Positions 6,112 through 63,859 of a stretch of 64,000 nucleotides of DNA are shown here, piece after piece. The stretch lies in NCBI GenBank assembly GCA_964023275.1, contig OZ029922.1:609501-673500 (forward strand), written 5' to 3'. Below the pieces are notes generated by a model. It had not been told where the DNA came from. It worked only from the letters and a program-made list of their open reading frames with translations, and did no database searches. The stretch's first letter is position 1, and every line of letters starts with the position of its first letter. Both the position numbers and the translations under genes were made by a program. The stretch comes from Norana najaformis. Its lineage: Eukaryota; Annelida; Clitellata; Crassiclitellata; Hormogastridae.

Positions 6112-6580
6112 TCAACTTAGATTTGCGTAAATATTTGCTCCTGGAGGGTTAGCAGTAGGCGACTTGGAATTTTTCATTGGAAGAGCGTAGACGTCTCCTT
6201 GTGCAGTGATTTGAATTGGATGAGAATTGGACCCACCTGAAGAGTTACCCTTTGATTCCGGCATGGCATATATGCCTCCCAATGGACCGACCTTAGTTGG
6301 AGATGTTGCACTGTCACGTTTCTTGTTTGCTTCCATGTAGGTCGGTTCTTTCTGGAATTCCACGGAAGCGTAGACGATTCCAGGCTGTTGGTTTGTAGCT
6401 TCCACTTCCTGTTGGTTGATTGTTGCGAGTGGAATTTCCGCGTAGACGCCTTGAATATCACCTGCTCCGTTTCCTGGAGGGTTGTGAGATGGGTTGGCAG
6501 GTGCGTTGGCTCGTTTGTCTGGCGATTCCTCAAGTCTATTCTGTTCAGTATTGTTGTTAGTTTTCGATTGATTGGTGTTT
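6112..6580 (-). CDS. R1 tail exon, type I (five YA motifs)
   Basis: This last coding exon of R1 encodes about 155 cytoplasmic residues, rich in Pro, Asn and Gln. Five tyrosines sit in a repeated (I/V)YA context: [31 protein letters not shown] and NIYANL at the C-terminus. IVYASV fits the ITIM consensus (I/V/L/S)xYxx(L/V/I). The others are close to it or are YxxP motifs of the kind bound by SH2 domains. The acceptor is TTTAG at 6581 on the minus strand. The first base completes a Lys codon begun in the TM exon. The R4 tail exon is its clear paralog. Confidence 0.85.
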
Positions 6581-9500
6581 CTAAATATTTCAACAACGAC
6601 GGTCCCATATTGTATAAGTCCATGTATGAGTGTCTGACTATATATATATATATATATATATATATATAGCCTTTTAAAACCTCACAAATGACTGACAGGC
6701 AACAATGACAATACCCCAAATTTAACAGCATTGGCTATTATCGGTGCCTTTAAAAGGTCCTTAAAAGGAGCTGTATAAATATCTAGATACATACATGCAC
6801 ACATTATTTTGTCACACCTCCTAAAATAATTTAATTTATGTTTCACATTCTTAGCCTCTAAGCAGATTTCTTGCATTTGTTTTTTGCGGATTATGTGGCT
6901 AAAGTGAACTCTACCCTACGAAGAGAACAAAAACTCCATCCCGCTTCTTTTCATCGCTAGCTAGTCTCTAACTGAGAAATGGAGATTGCACAAGCCTGTA
7001 ATAATGAACAACATTATACTTTCATGGGCAAAGAGGCGAAACCTTGAGTATCAGAATCTAGGCTATACAGGAGTGTGTTAAGCGCCTATTTGGGAATTTA
7101 AAAAATGCATCTTGTGGTGTCTGCTGGAAGAGTTTTATCTTCGTGAATAGTGCCAGTGTAGGTCATATTTATAAACACATCATTGCATAAAACCTAATAA
7201 TATTGTGTGTGCATGTAACTTATACGAAGTGATCACACTTAACAGTTGTCTGAAGAGATCATAAGAAATATCCTATTGTGTCTAATTTGTTTAACTGTGG
7301 AGCTATTTGACAACAGAAATCACTTATTTATAGGCTACGCTTTTCGCTACAGAGATTACGAGATACTGAAATTTAGGAGAATAAAATTTAGGAGAATATA
7401 TGAACATAGAGACAACATAGAAAATAAAAGTCAAATTAAGTGTACTTACTTAGCAGGCTTTCTTGTAGATAAGACTGCGATGATGATGACGATGATGCAA
7501 ATGATGATGATTACTATTCCGGCACTGACGCCTGAGTAAACTATAACACAACATAAAGCCATTAAACTGAATGAATTAGATATTTGCAGATATATCAGAT
7601 GAACTCTAATAGATTAGCTTCAGGTCATACAACAGTTTATCCAAAGGTAGCGGGATGGTCCCATGTATACGACATTGCTATTCTCCATTACGTTCAACGT
7701 TAAAATTCCAGAGCATCAGGTTAAATTTGAAATCCACAATTTGCTATTGCAACTTGAAAGGAAAGGCTGTCAAATGATCATGTAGCAAACAGGTATCCGT
7801 CGGTACATCAATTCATGCATTCATACGCCCATCCGTCCCTACATCCGTCCGTTCATCCATCCATCCACCCAGCCACCTATCCATACATCCAAATATTAAC
7901 CTATTAAGGCCTATAAGGCGCCACAATCCGCAAGGCATTAGCGATGGAACTAAGAAGTTGTGAATAGATAATTAATTTTACTCTAGGTCCCTGCACAATG
8001 AATGCTTTAGGCAAAGCAAGCGCGCAACAATCGGCCGCAATGTTAAATCATTTATTCCCTCTGTCATCTGATTGTAACGTCTACTTTCCTCTATACATGT
8101 CTTCTCTTCAAAGACCACATTGTTCTACAGCAGACCTGAACAAAAGTGTATATTGTATCGATATGTGTGGCAATTTCATAGTTTTTAATGAATTAAATGT
8201 TTATTTGGTCATCTAAAATGCGTATAGGGCCTATTTTGTTTGCTTTGATGGAAACTTAAAGAAATGCACATTGAAGCCTAATCGAAAATACTCACGTAGA
8301 ACGTGTGATTCAGGATTTGAGGGTCGTGGAGTCGTATTTTGCGATGTCTTACTTGACGTCATATTTGGCGTCTTATTTGACGTCGTACTTCGCATCATAT
8401 TTGAACCTAAAACTAAAAAAATATTAATACGCATATGCACAGTGAATTGATTATAAAGGAGTCACAAAGTGTTAATTTAAACCAAACCTATTCTTTATTT
8501 CATTCAAGTTGAATTTAAAGAAACCATAAAACTGTAACATGGCGCAACAGTATTAAGGATAGTCACAATCATGTTTAGATTTACAAAACCACAAAATGAA
8601 CTGTGATCAAGCTTTGCATTGCAACAGAGCAAATCAAACAATAGGGCGCATCATGAATTGCGCAAAAAGGCTAATAATAGGCTAAATTAATCTTCATAAT
8701 TTATATTTAGCGCCATTATTACTAAATAAACCAAACAAAGTGTTAGGGTAATTGTAATAACTCGCTAATTCGTATGATTTATATTTACCAACATTATCAC
8801 TGAATGAAACCAGACATTAATCTGCTACCGCTTACTTCTTTGACAGACAACCTTCTTCTTGTCCGTGCATCGGACTGCCTTCCATTCGCCATTCGAGGCA
8901 TCAATGGAAATACATTCACCACTTAATGAATATGAATCGTTTGACCAACTGCTGTATTTGATTTCGTCATTGGAATCCGCTATTAACATTGATAAATGAG
9001 GCAGCCTGCCAACCGTTTGTTTCACATGATCCCATAAAATTACCATCAATTAACATTACGGCGATGTTTGATTCAAAGAAAATAAAAAAGGTTTTTTTTT
9101 TTGTATAGACCAGAAATGCTCAGCTTTGCAATAACCGAATCAGCGAAAATATGCGATTTGGTCACTTTCGTCAGCTAAAATTGCATATTTAAACACGTGA
9201 CAAGCAGATGCTCAGGTATAAGTTAACAACTTCTATGATATCACTTTCTAACTGACAGACCTGATACTGTTTAAAAACCTAACTGGAAAGCCCATAGATT
9301 TTCGAAGGACGGTGTCGACTAGGCGGTGTTAACCTCGAATTCAGCCCCCTTTAATTCTACCCAAGGACTCATCTGTGCAGATGTTGACTTTGTGTTTACA
9401 CATCATCTTTTATGATAACTGAAAGCGGTCCCTTAAGTAAATATAATTTTCTCGCTCGTACTAGGCTAGACGTGCTAATTACTTTTGAATTGCACAACAG

Positions 9501-61565: not shown

Positions 61566-61614
61566 TCTGAGACTTACTGAACTATTAGGGATACCTGAAT
61601 ATCAAATTACTCAC

Positions 61615-63859
61615 ATGTAGCATAGTTTACTGTTTCAGATTCTCGTTGACCAGACGTCGACAAGAGCTTCACCGAAAACAACAAGTAATTCTTTATTCAA
61701 AAGATTCAATAGGTAGTGATTTAGAAAGACAACACAGGTGTCTGACCATTACTGGGATTCACTTACACTTTAGACATACAGGTCACTATTGTACAATTAA
61801 TCTGCATTCAACTGATGAACCAATTCCTGGGGCTACAATATTTTCAGTTTTGTGTTCAGTACTTCAGTTCTTGGTGATATTTTTATATAAATATTCAAAG
61901 TATTAAGTATGCTGCATCTAAAGATATAACTACAGCTTATATTAATACTCTAATTTTATCTAAGTAGATCTTCAGTTTCATCTATTTCGATCTTCTAGGC
62001 ATCCATGCTCCGACGCTCATAAAGTGCCGCCAATGTCCAGGCACATAGTCTACATACGTGCACACAGAAACTAGAGTATGCACGTCAGATTATCTTTCCA
62101 AACAAATATCTAGCACGAAGACAATAGTGGCACTGACAATAAAGGCTTGACCTATTGCTGTGCATGTTGGATTGGCATGGTCTTGAATTGCTAACGCGTT
62201 TGCCTTGAACCTCTAAGTCGGATATTCTAATCCCGCATAATAATGGTTGCTTGTCTGGTTGTTGGATTGATTTTGTCTTGTTTGCACTTCAGCCAAATGA
62301 TTTGTCAACCCACCAACCACAACTATTAAGTATTAATGGTGAAAGAGGCGTACTATGACATATTCTTAACTTATCCACCATAGCCTACCTTTTATCCCTT
62401 ACTTCATGGACATCGACGGTAGTGAATGATTGGATTAAAGAGAAAGGTTTCAACTAAAACACAGTCGGCTGTGGGCGATAGGCGGTGACAACTGGACAGT
62501 GAAACTTTTAAAATCAGGTTATTATTCCTGCGTTGTATCGTTTTTACTTACTGCCATATGATTTTTGATGAGGATGTGTTGTCGAAATCTTAAAGAAGAG
62601 AAACATTAATTTACACATTTAAAAATCTTATTTTATGTATCTATTTATTTAAATCACTTATAACGAGCGCAGTGTCAGTACACCCGAATCTGAGGCGCGG
62701 ATGTATGTTCGCTAGGGGCCAAGATGTAGGCCTAATCATGCAAAAGCCAGGGTGAAGTAGTTAATCATAAGAAGTGATTTAAAAGATGATAGCGAGTTTG
62801 CAAGTAAGGCATTTTGTGATAGACGATTCCAAATACGAGCAGCACAACAAGTAAAGGCACATGCATGATTCTACAATTGTTCTGAACCTAGGTTCTTGCA
62901 ATAAACCAGTATCAGAAGAATGCAAGAATCTAGGAGGGCGATATAGAGTCAGCAATGAATTAAGATATGATCGAAGGCCGGTGTTTTGAACCTTAAAGAT
63001 CAAGCATGGACTTTGAAAGTAAATACGCCATTCAGCAGGAACCCAGTGAAAAGCACCAAGAAGTTCTAATGCATTCGATGAAGAAGAACATGTCACAACC
63101 CTAGAAAGAGAGCTTTGAACCCTCTTGAGCTTTTTTGCATTAAAAGAGGTTATACCATATAACACCGAGAACCAACAAGTGCACAAGCCACTGTTTTAGC
63201 CATGTCGTTTGTCAGAGAATGTCTGATGTGACGAAATGCCTTTAAAAGACCTGCAAATCGAAGATACGTGTGAAGTCATAGTGAGCGAATTGTCAGTGGT
63301 AACACCCGAGATTTTTAATTTTGTCTGATAGTGGGATTTAGGTCCACAGATAACGCACTCATTGTTATTTGAATTTAAGTGGTAATGGTTTATCAATTTT
63401 CATAGCCGCTTCATTTGCCAAAAGAGTTGAAGTAGAAATCTTTCACCAAGTTATAGGTACTTGTAACACATGTAGCTACAGTTCTTTGTTGCCGATTAAA
63501 CTCCGAACTGTTGTAAAAGAAGTATCAAACTAAACTTGTGTTACTGCATTGAATTCGGTCTATTGGTGTTGATTATTATGCCTTTTGACCCTGCAGTAAT
63601 ATATAGAAGATAGGCTAGGATTTAAAAAGAATCATTTCTACATAAAAAAGCGTGTTTATAATTGTAGCTGGCAACAGTTTTACAAAGAACAACCAGATGA
63701 AACTGGTATTGCTGACCTCTTTGACAGACGACCTTCAGTTTATCTGAGCATTCGATTGTCTTCCATTAACCATTAGATGAATTGATTGAAATACAGTCTC
63801 CAGTTAATGATCACAATCGTCAGACCAATTGATGTATTTAATTTCGTCTTCTTCAGTTG
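61615..63859 (-). pseudogene. R7: remnant receptor, exons c, stalk 1 and stalk 2 only
   Basis: Paralogous to R6. Exon c 63717-63859 is 143 bp (R6 144): one base is missing after IKYINWSDD and a Lys codon has become TAA. Stalk 1 62552-62588 is one base longer than in R6. Stalk 2 61615-61672 is two bases shorter and its acceptor reads TTTTCG instead of TTTTAG. Homology to R6 stops near 61565, before any TM or tail exon. A LINE fragment fills the c-stalk 1 intron. Upstream exons b, a', a and the signal peptide would lie beyond the right edge. Confidence 0.8.
62640..63405 (-). mobile_element. LINE fragment, CR1/L2-like RT C-terminal part
   Basis: Minus-strand frames give KLKISGVTTDNSLTMTSHV, then LYGITSFNAKKLKRVQSSLS, FHWVPAEWRI and YRPPRFLHSSDTGLL. 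This matches the common C-terminal region of CR1/L2-type reverse transcriptases. A frameshift separates the two parts. It interrupts sequence that is continuous in R6 (54.03-54.25 kb), so it inserted into the R7 intron. Confidence 0.8.

Follow-up and report, generated by a model that had tools for sequence, protein, structure and literature searches.

A tandem array of double-CTLD receptor genes in the annelid Norana najaformis: close ectodomains with different tyrosine tails in a candidate paired-receptor family

We analysed a window of 64,000 nucleotides from Norana najaformis (contig OZ029922.1, here C10, positions C10:609501-673500 of its own genome of 608 Mb in 17 contigs). The minus strand of this window carries seven head-to-tail units, R1 to R7, of a type I receptor gene with two C-type lectin-like domains (CTLDs). 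Closely related ectodomains in this array bear cytoplasmic tails of two different classes, A and B, and the sequence comparisons show that ectodomains and modules made of the transmembrane (TM) helix and the tail have swapped partners, at a point downstream of the last lectin exon and upstream of the TM exon. We consider it probable that the units are germline-encoded paired receptors of the cell surface, a family in which signalling has two outputs; we go no further than probable, as the tree supports no more than two A/B pairs as sisters and does not show the class labels to be clearly over-dispersed. A full gene would encode a type I membrane protein with a signal peptide, two long-form CTLDs, a single TM helix after a short stalk, and a multi-tyrosine tail, and the TM-tail modules would be of two kinds, a long A (YxxI/L/V and YxxP motifs, for docking or resembling the immunoreceptor tyrosine-based inhibition motif, ITIM) and a short B (three tyrosines). 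The A and B partners would recognise identical or similar ligands, either proteins or non-classical glycans, and their signals through SH2 domains would differ and might oppose each other. Such receptors may serve in immune or self recognition.

Exchange between ectodomains and tails

The exon order of a unit is signal, CTLD1a, CTLD1b, CTLD2a, CTLD2b, stalk, TM and tail, and synonymous divergence (dS) was compared along it. Between the ectodomains of R1 and R3, dS is 0.04 (95% range 0.01-0.08), though their tails are of different class, and between the CTLD2 of R4 and R5, with tails A and B, it is 0.12 (0.04-0.21). In the pair R1/R4, both of class A, dS amounts to 1.44 (0.99-2.92) in the ectodomain and 0.45 (0.31-0.63) in the TM and tail; in R3/R5, both of class B, it is 1.36 (from 0.80) in CTLD2 and 0.22 (0.08-0.44) in the tail. 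One result fits poorly, a dS of 1.2 in the short type B TM stretch of R3/R5, which has 17 synonymous sites. These values indicate that the tail and the ectodomain of one gene differ in age. It appears that no one history shared by whole genes would account for the ectodomain and the tail values alike.

A tree was built from 15 ectodomains, those of R1 to R6 and of nine neighbours from outside the window; 12 of these units were classed by their tails (5 A, 7 B), and the other three have no tail, a tail of another kind or an unclassed one. The input consisted of the CTLD1a, CTLD2a and CTLD2b pieces without CTLD1b, the pieces of the neighbours being used as given by tblastn and U567 being entered without CTLD2a; it did not include eight units at 383-490 kb, counted by their CTLD2a matches, isolated CTLD1a matches at 550, 551 and 552 kb, or R7. 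For the neighbours, the tail class was judged by eye on a motif scan, ahead of the profile test described below, and a broken part is present in 3 of the 12 classed units (R5, U517 with a stop in the tail, and U561 with a stop inside the tail match). On this tree the tail class requires five changes, the maximum for five A units, and the well-supported branches force four of these changes. A single clade of the A units is rejected, the constraint costing 376 in likelihood (p-AU of the approximately unbiased test 1.4e-57). When R5, U517 and U561 were removed, the four remaining A units required four changes, compared with a mean of 3.2 for shuffled labels. Support for R1/R3 and for R4/R5 as sister pairs is 100/99. 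The initial annotation was right that close ectodomains carry tails of different class in these two pairs, and this is a real pattern and not chance.

A third place where A and B tails occur on related ectodomains lies outside the window. U526 (A), U544 (B) and U561 (B) fall in one group (94/93) whose inner branching is not resolved; by dS, U526 and U544 are the closest (0.21, vs 0.35 and 0.39 to U561). These two units are alike from the upstream DNA through CTLD2b and show about 38-48% identity beyond it, save for the last two intervals compared, which have few aligned sites; their similarity continues for about 340 nt beyond CTLD2b, and another piece matches at 66%. Strong matching stops 63 nt beyond CTLD2b in R1/R3 and 27-29 nt beyond it in R4/R5. 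Since similarity ends differently in the three pairs, the breakpoint between ectodomain and tail is not a single fixed site, and it may be located after the stalk.

The R1-R3 alignment, with an insertion in an R1 intron left out, contains a best segment of 1895 aligned sites at 97.8% identity, compared with 67.4% in the remaining 1036 sites. None of 500 permutations reached the score of this segment, 1643 (highest 744). This tract (11490-14364 on the R1 side, 27589-29483 on the R3 side) extends from 2 nt before CTLD1a to 9 nt after CTLD1b, and the CTLD1 within it shows 14 nonsynonymous differences and none at 78 synonymous sites, its nonsynonymous sites differing more than those of intron 2. 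A second tract covers CTLD2b (R1 side 8773-9087, R3 side 24404-24718), with 315 sites at 98.1% and a score of 261 (the highest of 300 permutations was 73). These observations show that the lectin exons of R1 and R3 were made alike by recent gene conversion. The possibility that R1 and R3 are haplotype duplicates was rejected, given that the 97.8% tract lies inside flanks of 67%. No comparable tract was found in R4/R5, where the best segments reach 78-85%.

Gene models, lectin domains and tails

Exons were located by comparing copy with copy, their edges were set by GT-AG sites and phase, and the exons were then assembled. The GT-AG introns are therefore given by construction, which is not the case for the single phase pattern that keeps R1, R3, R4 and R6 all open. 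In this pattern, the introns up to the TM exon are in phase 1 and the intron preceding the tail exon is in phase 2; once spliced, the four units give open frames from ATG to stop of 487 (R1), 402 (R3), 511 (R4) and 380 (R6) amino acids. The initial annotation had likewise counted four open units, among seven copies of one plan. Seven units do stand head to tail on the minus strand, and the whole plan is present in only those four, R2 having no TM or tail exon that was found and R5 and R7 being broken. The stalk exons are the weakest calls in these models and are tentative. One alternatively spliced gene was rejected as an interpretation, given that a signal exon and a tail of its own are present in each of R1, R3, R4 and R6, and so were two wholly unrelated families side by side, since a single exon plan and phase pattern run throughout.

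All exons lie on the minus strand. R1 consists of a signal-peptide exon (14817-14877), CTLD1a (14063-14362), CTLD1b (11499-11609), CTLD2a (9660-9893), CTLD2b (8836-8979), a tentative stalk exon rich in serine, threonine and asparagine with a 12-nt repeat (8353-8406), a type A TM exon (7450-7540) and a class A tail exon (6115-6580; YAEI, YASV, YMEA, YAMP, YALP, YANL). R3 has the signal-peptide exon at 30092-30152, CTLD1a at 29191-29481, CTLD1b at 27598-27708, CTLD2a at 25265-25498, CTLD2b at 24467-24610, two tentative stalk exons, of which the first is rich in serine and threonine (23537-23623) and the second lies at 22933-22971, a type B TM exon (22408-22486) and a class B tail exon (21871-22030; YQDL, YTRL, YEEV). 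The corresponding exons of R4 are at 41006-41066 (signal peptide), 39667-39969 (CTLD1a), 38338-38493 (CTLD1b), 37574-37801 (CTLD2a), 35982-36122 (CTLD2b), 35645-35707 (stalk, tentative), 34325-34415 (TM, type A) and 32861-33350 (tail, class A; YADI, YASL, YQEP, YAMP, YALP, YANL). Those of R6 are at 58042-58102 (signal peptide), 57093-57383 (CTLD1a, with a weak acceptor), 55900-56016 (CTLD1b), 54996-55226 (CTLD2a), 54512-54655 (CTLD2b), 53081-53140 (stalk), 52667-52751 (TM, type B) and 52248-52398 (tail, class B; YEDT, YTEL, YEEV).

The ectodomain of R2 (19897-15477) is open through CTLD2b, with exons at 19837-19897 (signal peptide), 18173-18463 (CTLD1a), 17580-17690 (CTLD1b), 16753-16986 (CTLD2a) and 15477-15626 (CTLD2b); stalk, TM and tail exons were not found downstream, in the 600 nt preceding the R1 signal exon. 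R5 (43153-50255) is broken. Its signal exon (about 50255-50196) is followed by a CTLD1a that loses the frame (about 49387-49083), CTLD1b (about 48113-47994), CTLD2a (about 47456-47229), CTLD2b (about 46013-45867), a TM exon (about 43679-43602) and a class B tail (about 43314-43153). The TM exon is one base shorter than that of R3, and its phase consequently does not match that of the R5 tail exon. Also broken is R7, a remnant at 61616-63863 that extends past the window to a CTLD1a at C10:673962 and a signal exon at C10:674709. It has a stop inside CTLD2b (about 63863-63718) and a stalk exon (about 61666-61616) in which CG replaces the AG acceptor, and no CTLD1b or CTLD2a was detected in it by tblastn.

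Several other features were observed in the window. CTLD1b of R4 contains an in-frame 18-nt tandem repeat (38402-38451) and is 12 residues longer than that of R5, possibly a loop-length variant. The insertion in the second intron of R1, of about 950 nt (12590-13540), is absent from R3 and has an open reading frame (ORF) weakly resembling DUF6451, under the cut-off; it is perhaps a retroelement, either inserted once the conversion had taken place or since lost from R3. A dispersed inverted repeat occurs in introns of R1 and R3 (6902-7273, 9980-10348 and 25583-25925; 95% and 75% identical), and a long (AT)n array of about 320 bases lies at 10651-10969. An Rfam scan at the gathering threshold and tRNA scans gave no match, a Pfam scan of ten further ORFs in the window gave only the DUF6451 match, and a search for relatives in viral contigs returned 92 pattern stretches, none of them confirmed.

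The two CTLDs per receptor proposed at the outset were recovered when the spliced proteins were checked against profiles: Pfam PF00059 (Lectin_C) matched two stretches in each of five proteins (E values 6e-19 to 1.5e-23), and CTLD1 alone passed the curated cut-off in all four tested (R1, R2, R4 and R6; 26.5-33.7 bits vs 22.6). Inspection of the alignment revealed that CTLD1 and CTLD2 carry the additional N-terminal cysteines of long-form domains, except that one of these is missing from the CTLD1 of R1 and R3, and that CTLD1 lacks the inner cysteine pair. The EPN, QPD and WND motifs are absent from the five proteins, save for one WSD in R6, which makes classical calcium-dependent sugar binding by these receptors unlikely; a calcium-dependent sugar lectin was rejected as a candidate on the same ground. 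In profile matches to solved structures, chains of the mannose-receptor family came on top (LY75, an IgY receptor, PLA2R and MRC2) and the CTLDs of natural killer receptors lower (KLRB1 and CD69), and the best match of R4 CTLD1 alone was NKG2-D (E 1e-6). The layout of the mannose receptor was not found, as Pfam gives only two Lectin_C stretches above the cut-off per protein.

Class A tails (R1 and R4) have six tyrosines, all shared, in the motifs YAE/DI, YASV/L, YMEA or YQEP, YAMP, YALP and YANL. YxxP motifs suit Crk-type SH2 domains. Class B tails (R3, R5 and R6) have three, in YQDL/YQNL/YEDT, then YTxL and then YEEV, the last two forming a tight pair, YTxLQ(x)nYEEV. The TM type matches the tail class in all five units. 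The initial division into two unrelated tail classes is a fair one by profile, since in a leave-one-out test 12 of 12 tails were assigned to their own class (A at 31-136 bits, B at 12-48, the other class always below 6); a weak YxxL...Y(x)E core may be common to both. In class B, YxxL/I/V exceeds the shuffled expectation (p 0.0006-0.024) and all three tails contain a loose pattern of two motifs separated by a gap of 5 (p 0.005-0.015). ITIM-consensus motifs are found in both classes (one in R1, two in R4, two in R3, three in R5 and none in R6). The class B tails of R3 and R6 show a dN/dS of about 0.24, with a wide range on dS. The label of an immunoreceptor tyrosine-based activation motif (ITAM) was tried for class B and rejected, given that the tyrosine-to-tyrosine spacing of 9 is under the canonical range.

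The family beyond the window

Related exons occur over about C10:320-1,090 kb on both strands, so that the window is part of an array of about 0.8 Mb. With the R4 CTLD2a exon as query, at least 92 matches were obtained genome-wide at E 0.01, which are matches and not genes. Among them, at least 46 lie on C10 at 0.3-1.1 Mb, one at 4.48 Mb and six elsewhere, and at least 39 on C15 in two groups of 25 and 14 (20.29-20.69 Mb and 21.17-21.38 Mb). The neighbouring sequence read comprised C10:370-570 kb plus three segments adjacent to the window; it did not extend to C10:570-600 kb or to the greater part of 693-1,090 kb. In the six neighbouring units examined, a candidate TM exon going from phase 1 to phase 2 was present in all six and a signal exon in two; the candidate TM of U544 has an arginine near its inner end. 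By motif scan, both tail classes occur among the neighbours. A genome-wide search with the B tail of U544 matched only itself and the tail of U561.

Tyrosine tails of different kinds are found on the units at C10:383-490 kb (L002-L013), among them one that ends in an ITIM-like NIVYAQL and one that repeats the motif YEEIQESK. Next to U526 and U544, a block is duplicated at C10:528.7-532.3 and 547.4-550.8 kb (85-92%), which contains the start of a divergent plus-strand unit. Broken copies of the class A tail lie off the cluster at C3:13456920-13457350 and C11:24066379-24066715, the former about 10 kb from a CTLD2a-like exon. C15 also holds a decayed nuclear copy of COX1, in which TGA must be read as an amino acid and AGR codons are in frame, which fits invertebrate mitochondrial codes without choosing among them; its protein may resemble lophotrochozoan COX1.

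Probable paired receptors, other explanations and known systems

The initial annotation had compared the cluster with the paired-receptor families of vertebrates. What stands of this is the occurrence of related ectodomains with different tails at three places, together with the recent conversion tract that one pair shows in its ligand-binding exons. The TM helices of the four modelled receptors (R1, R3, R4 and R6) have no charged residue and canonical ITAM spacing is found in none of the five tails, which means that the features expected of an activating partner are missing. ITIM-consensus motifs, for their part, are present in A and B tails alike. As a wider and more tentative proposal, which we hold to be quite possible though still short of likely, an invertebrate may have independently evolved a large double-CTLD paired-receptor system, covering about 0.8 Mb of one chromosome and perhaps a second array, with dozens of receptors in which recombination and gene conversion would shuffle the recognition and signalling modules and pair them anew, so that a given specificity would have an A and a B output, for allorecognition or pathogen sensing.

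Besides the missing activating marks, several results weigh against paired receptors. Shuffled labels average 4.3 changes on the tree, so that tail class is unclustered and not clearly over-dispersed, and the p-AU at which a single A clade was rejected presumes a group named before the tree was seen. The supported A/B sisters are only R1/R3 and R4/R5, and R5 is broken; U500 (A) has as its sister U507, whose tail is of another kind, and U517 falls outside the U526/U544/U561 group. A weak R1/R3 match (61%, E 5e-6) over the stalk exons suggests that the shared part may pass CTLD2b. Conversion was shown in one pair only, R1/R3. The nonsynonymous excess in the CTLD1 of its tract (14/318 vs 28/1482 in intron 2, Fisher p 0.012) is small, and the test was conceived after seeing the data; in R4/R5, of which R5 is a broken unit, the nonsynonymous divergence (dN) nearly equals dS. 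The excess of YxxI/L/V over shuffled sequence is modest in class A (p 0.03-0.05), and identity near the tyrosines (38/53) is not significantly higher than elsewhere in the tail (61/102, p 0.16).

Three other explanations were considered; they overlap, and our confidence in each need not add up to a whole. One is unlikely in our view: a family for pattern recognition or scavenging that pathogen pressure has expanded, whose tails would be trafficking or docking variants without opposed signalling. It agrees with the fit of YxxL/V to AP2 endocytic signals, with the presence of YxxP besides YxxI/L/V in class A, and with the mannose-receptor-family proteins, which are endocytic, among the best solved relatives. 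CTLD expansions have also been described in bivalves (PMC10140915). Against such a family, the class A tyrosines of R1 and R4 are kept six out of six, A and B tails recur on close ectodomains at three places, and the recent R1/R3 tract covers the lectin exons and stops before the tail.

We judge as unlikely that the arrangement is a neutral by-product of unequal crossing-over, with breakpoints in long introns shuffling the modules and no selection for pairing, an explanation that overlaps with paired receptors as to mechanism. Two broken units and a tail-less one, the DNA duplicated along with U526 and U544 (85-92%), the variation of breakpoints between pairs and a tail class not significantly more dispersed than shuffled labels are consistent with it. 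It is opposed by the strong rejection of a single A clade, all four A units still needing separate changes without the broken units, by the four full frames that stay open, and by the dN/dS of the R3/R6 tails, subject to its wide dS range. Alternative splicing across units, for example of the R2 ectodomain onto R1 exons, which would make one complex gene and not seven, is very improbable: the ectodomain exons are phase 1-1, hence interchangeable, and R2, which adjoins R1 upstream, has no tail of its own that was found, but R1, R3, R4 and R6 are each equipped with a separate signal exon and tail, and R2 may equally read through to a stop just past CTLD2b.

Paired receptors are best known from vertebrates, and comparable invertebrate tails come from Ig-type allorecognition genes. 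If the reading as paired receptors is true, one recognition part with two outputs would have arisen again on an unrelated scaffold, the double CTLD, and the locus would let the process be followed through converting exons, breakpoint positions and ligand sharing between A and B. The initial remark, that no described family with this exact plan was known, agrees with our search, in which none of this layout appeared among the papers listed from the open-licence literature, a scope with most subscription journals and preprints outside it. Members of the mannose-receptor family have ricin-type and FN2 domains and eight or more CTLDs. Siglecs are built on an immunoglobulin (Ig) scaffold, and the Alr proteins of Hydractinia have Ig-like domains. 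Ly49 and NKR-P1 of the natural killer (NK) complex are clustered paired CTLD receptors, of type II and with one CTLD. The array resembles these NK-complex lectins in being a cluster of paired CTLD receptors, and differs from them in its type I orientation, N-terminal signal peptide, two CTLDs and C-terminal tail.

Among the invertebrate systems found, the oyster hemITAM lectins and Botryllus FcoR come nearest to the array. Oyster CgCLec-TM1 and CgCLec-HTM are, like the array products, invertebrate transmembrane C-type lectins, with a hemITAM tail and a reported Syk route; they have a carbohydrate recognition domain that binds lipopolysaccharide and bacteria, and no paired tails or cluster appear in the text available (PMC13027682). 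Botryllus BsCD94-1 is a CTLD membrane protein too; it comes from a tunicate, is linked to allorecognition and is of type II with one CTLD (PMC9505182). The Botryllus FcoR genes resemble the array in being clustered invertebrate type I receptors with ITIM/hemITAM tails, whose alleles and splice forms swap motifs; unlike the array, they have an Ig and sushi ectodomain and are encoded beside, and expressed with, a fester partner, and the term C-type lectin is absent from the available text (PMC12065747). The Alr genes of Hydractinia likewise encode candidate receptors, here for allorecognition, that bear ITIM/ITAM motifs (as cited in PMC12065747). In dog, CEACAM1 and CEACAM28 share a 2,332-bp tract at 99% over the leader and N exon (PMC2110893), and in primate Siglec pairs the ligand-binding exons were converted between receptors with different signalling parts (PMC6288428). 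These vertebrate pairs combine an ITIM receptor with an ITAM or adaptor-linked partner, whereas the array uses CTLDs and has neither mark of an activating partner; with CEACAM1/CEACAM28, Siglec-5/14 and Siglec-11/16 it shares ligand-binding exons homogenised by conversion and joined to different signalling parts (PMC2110893, PMC6288428).

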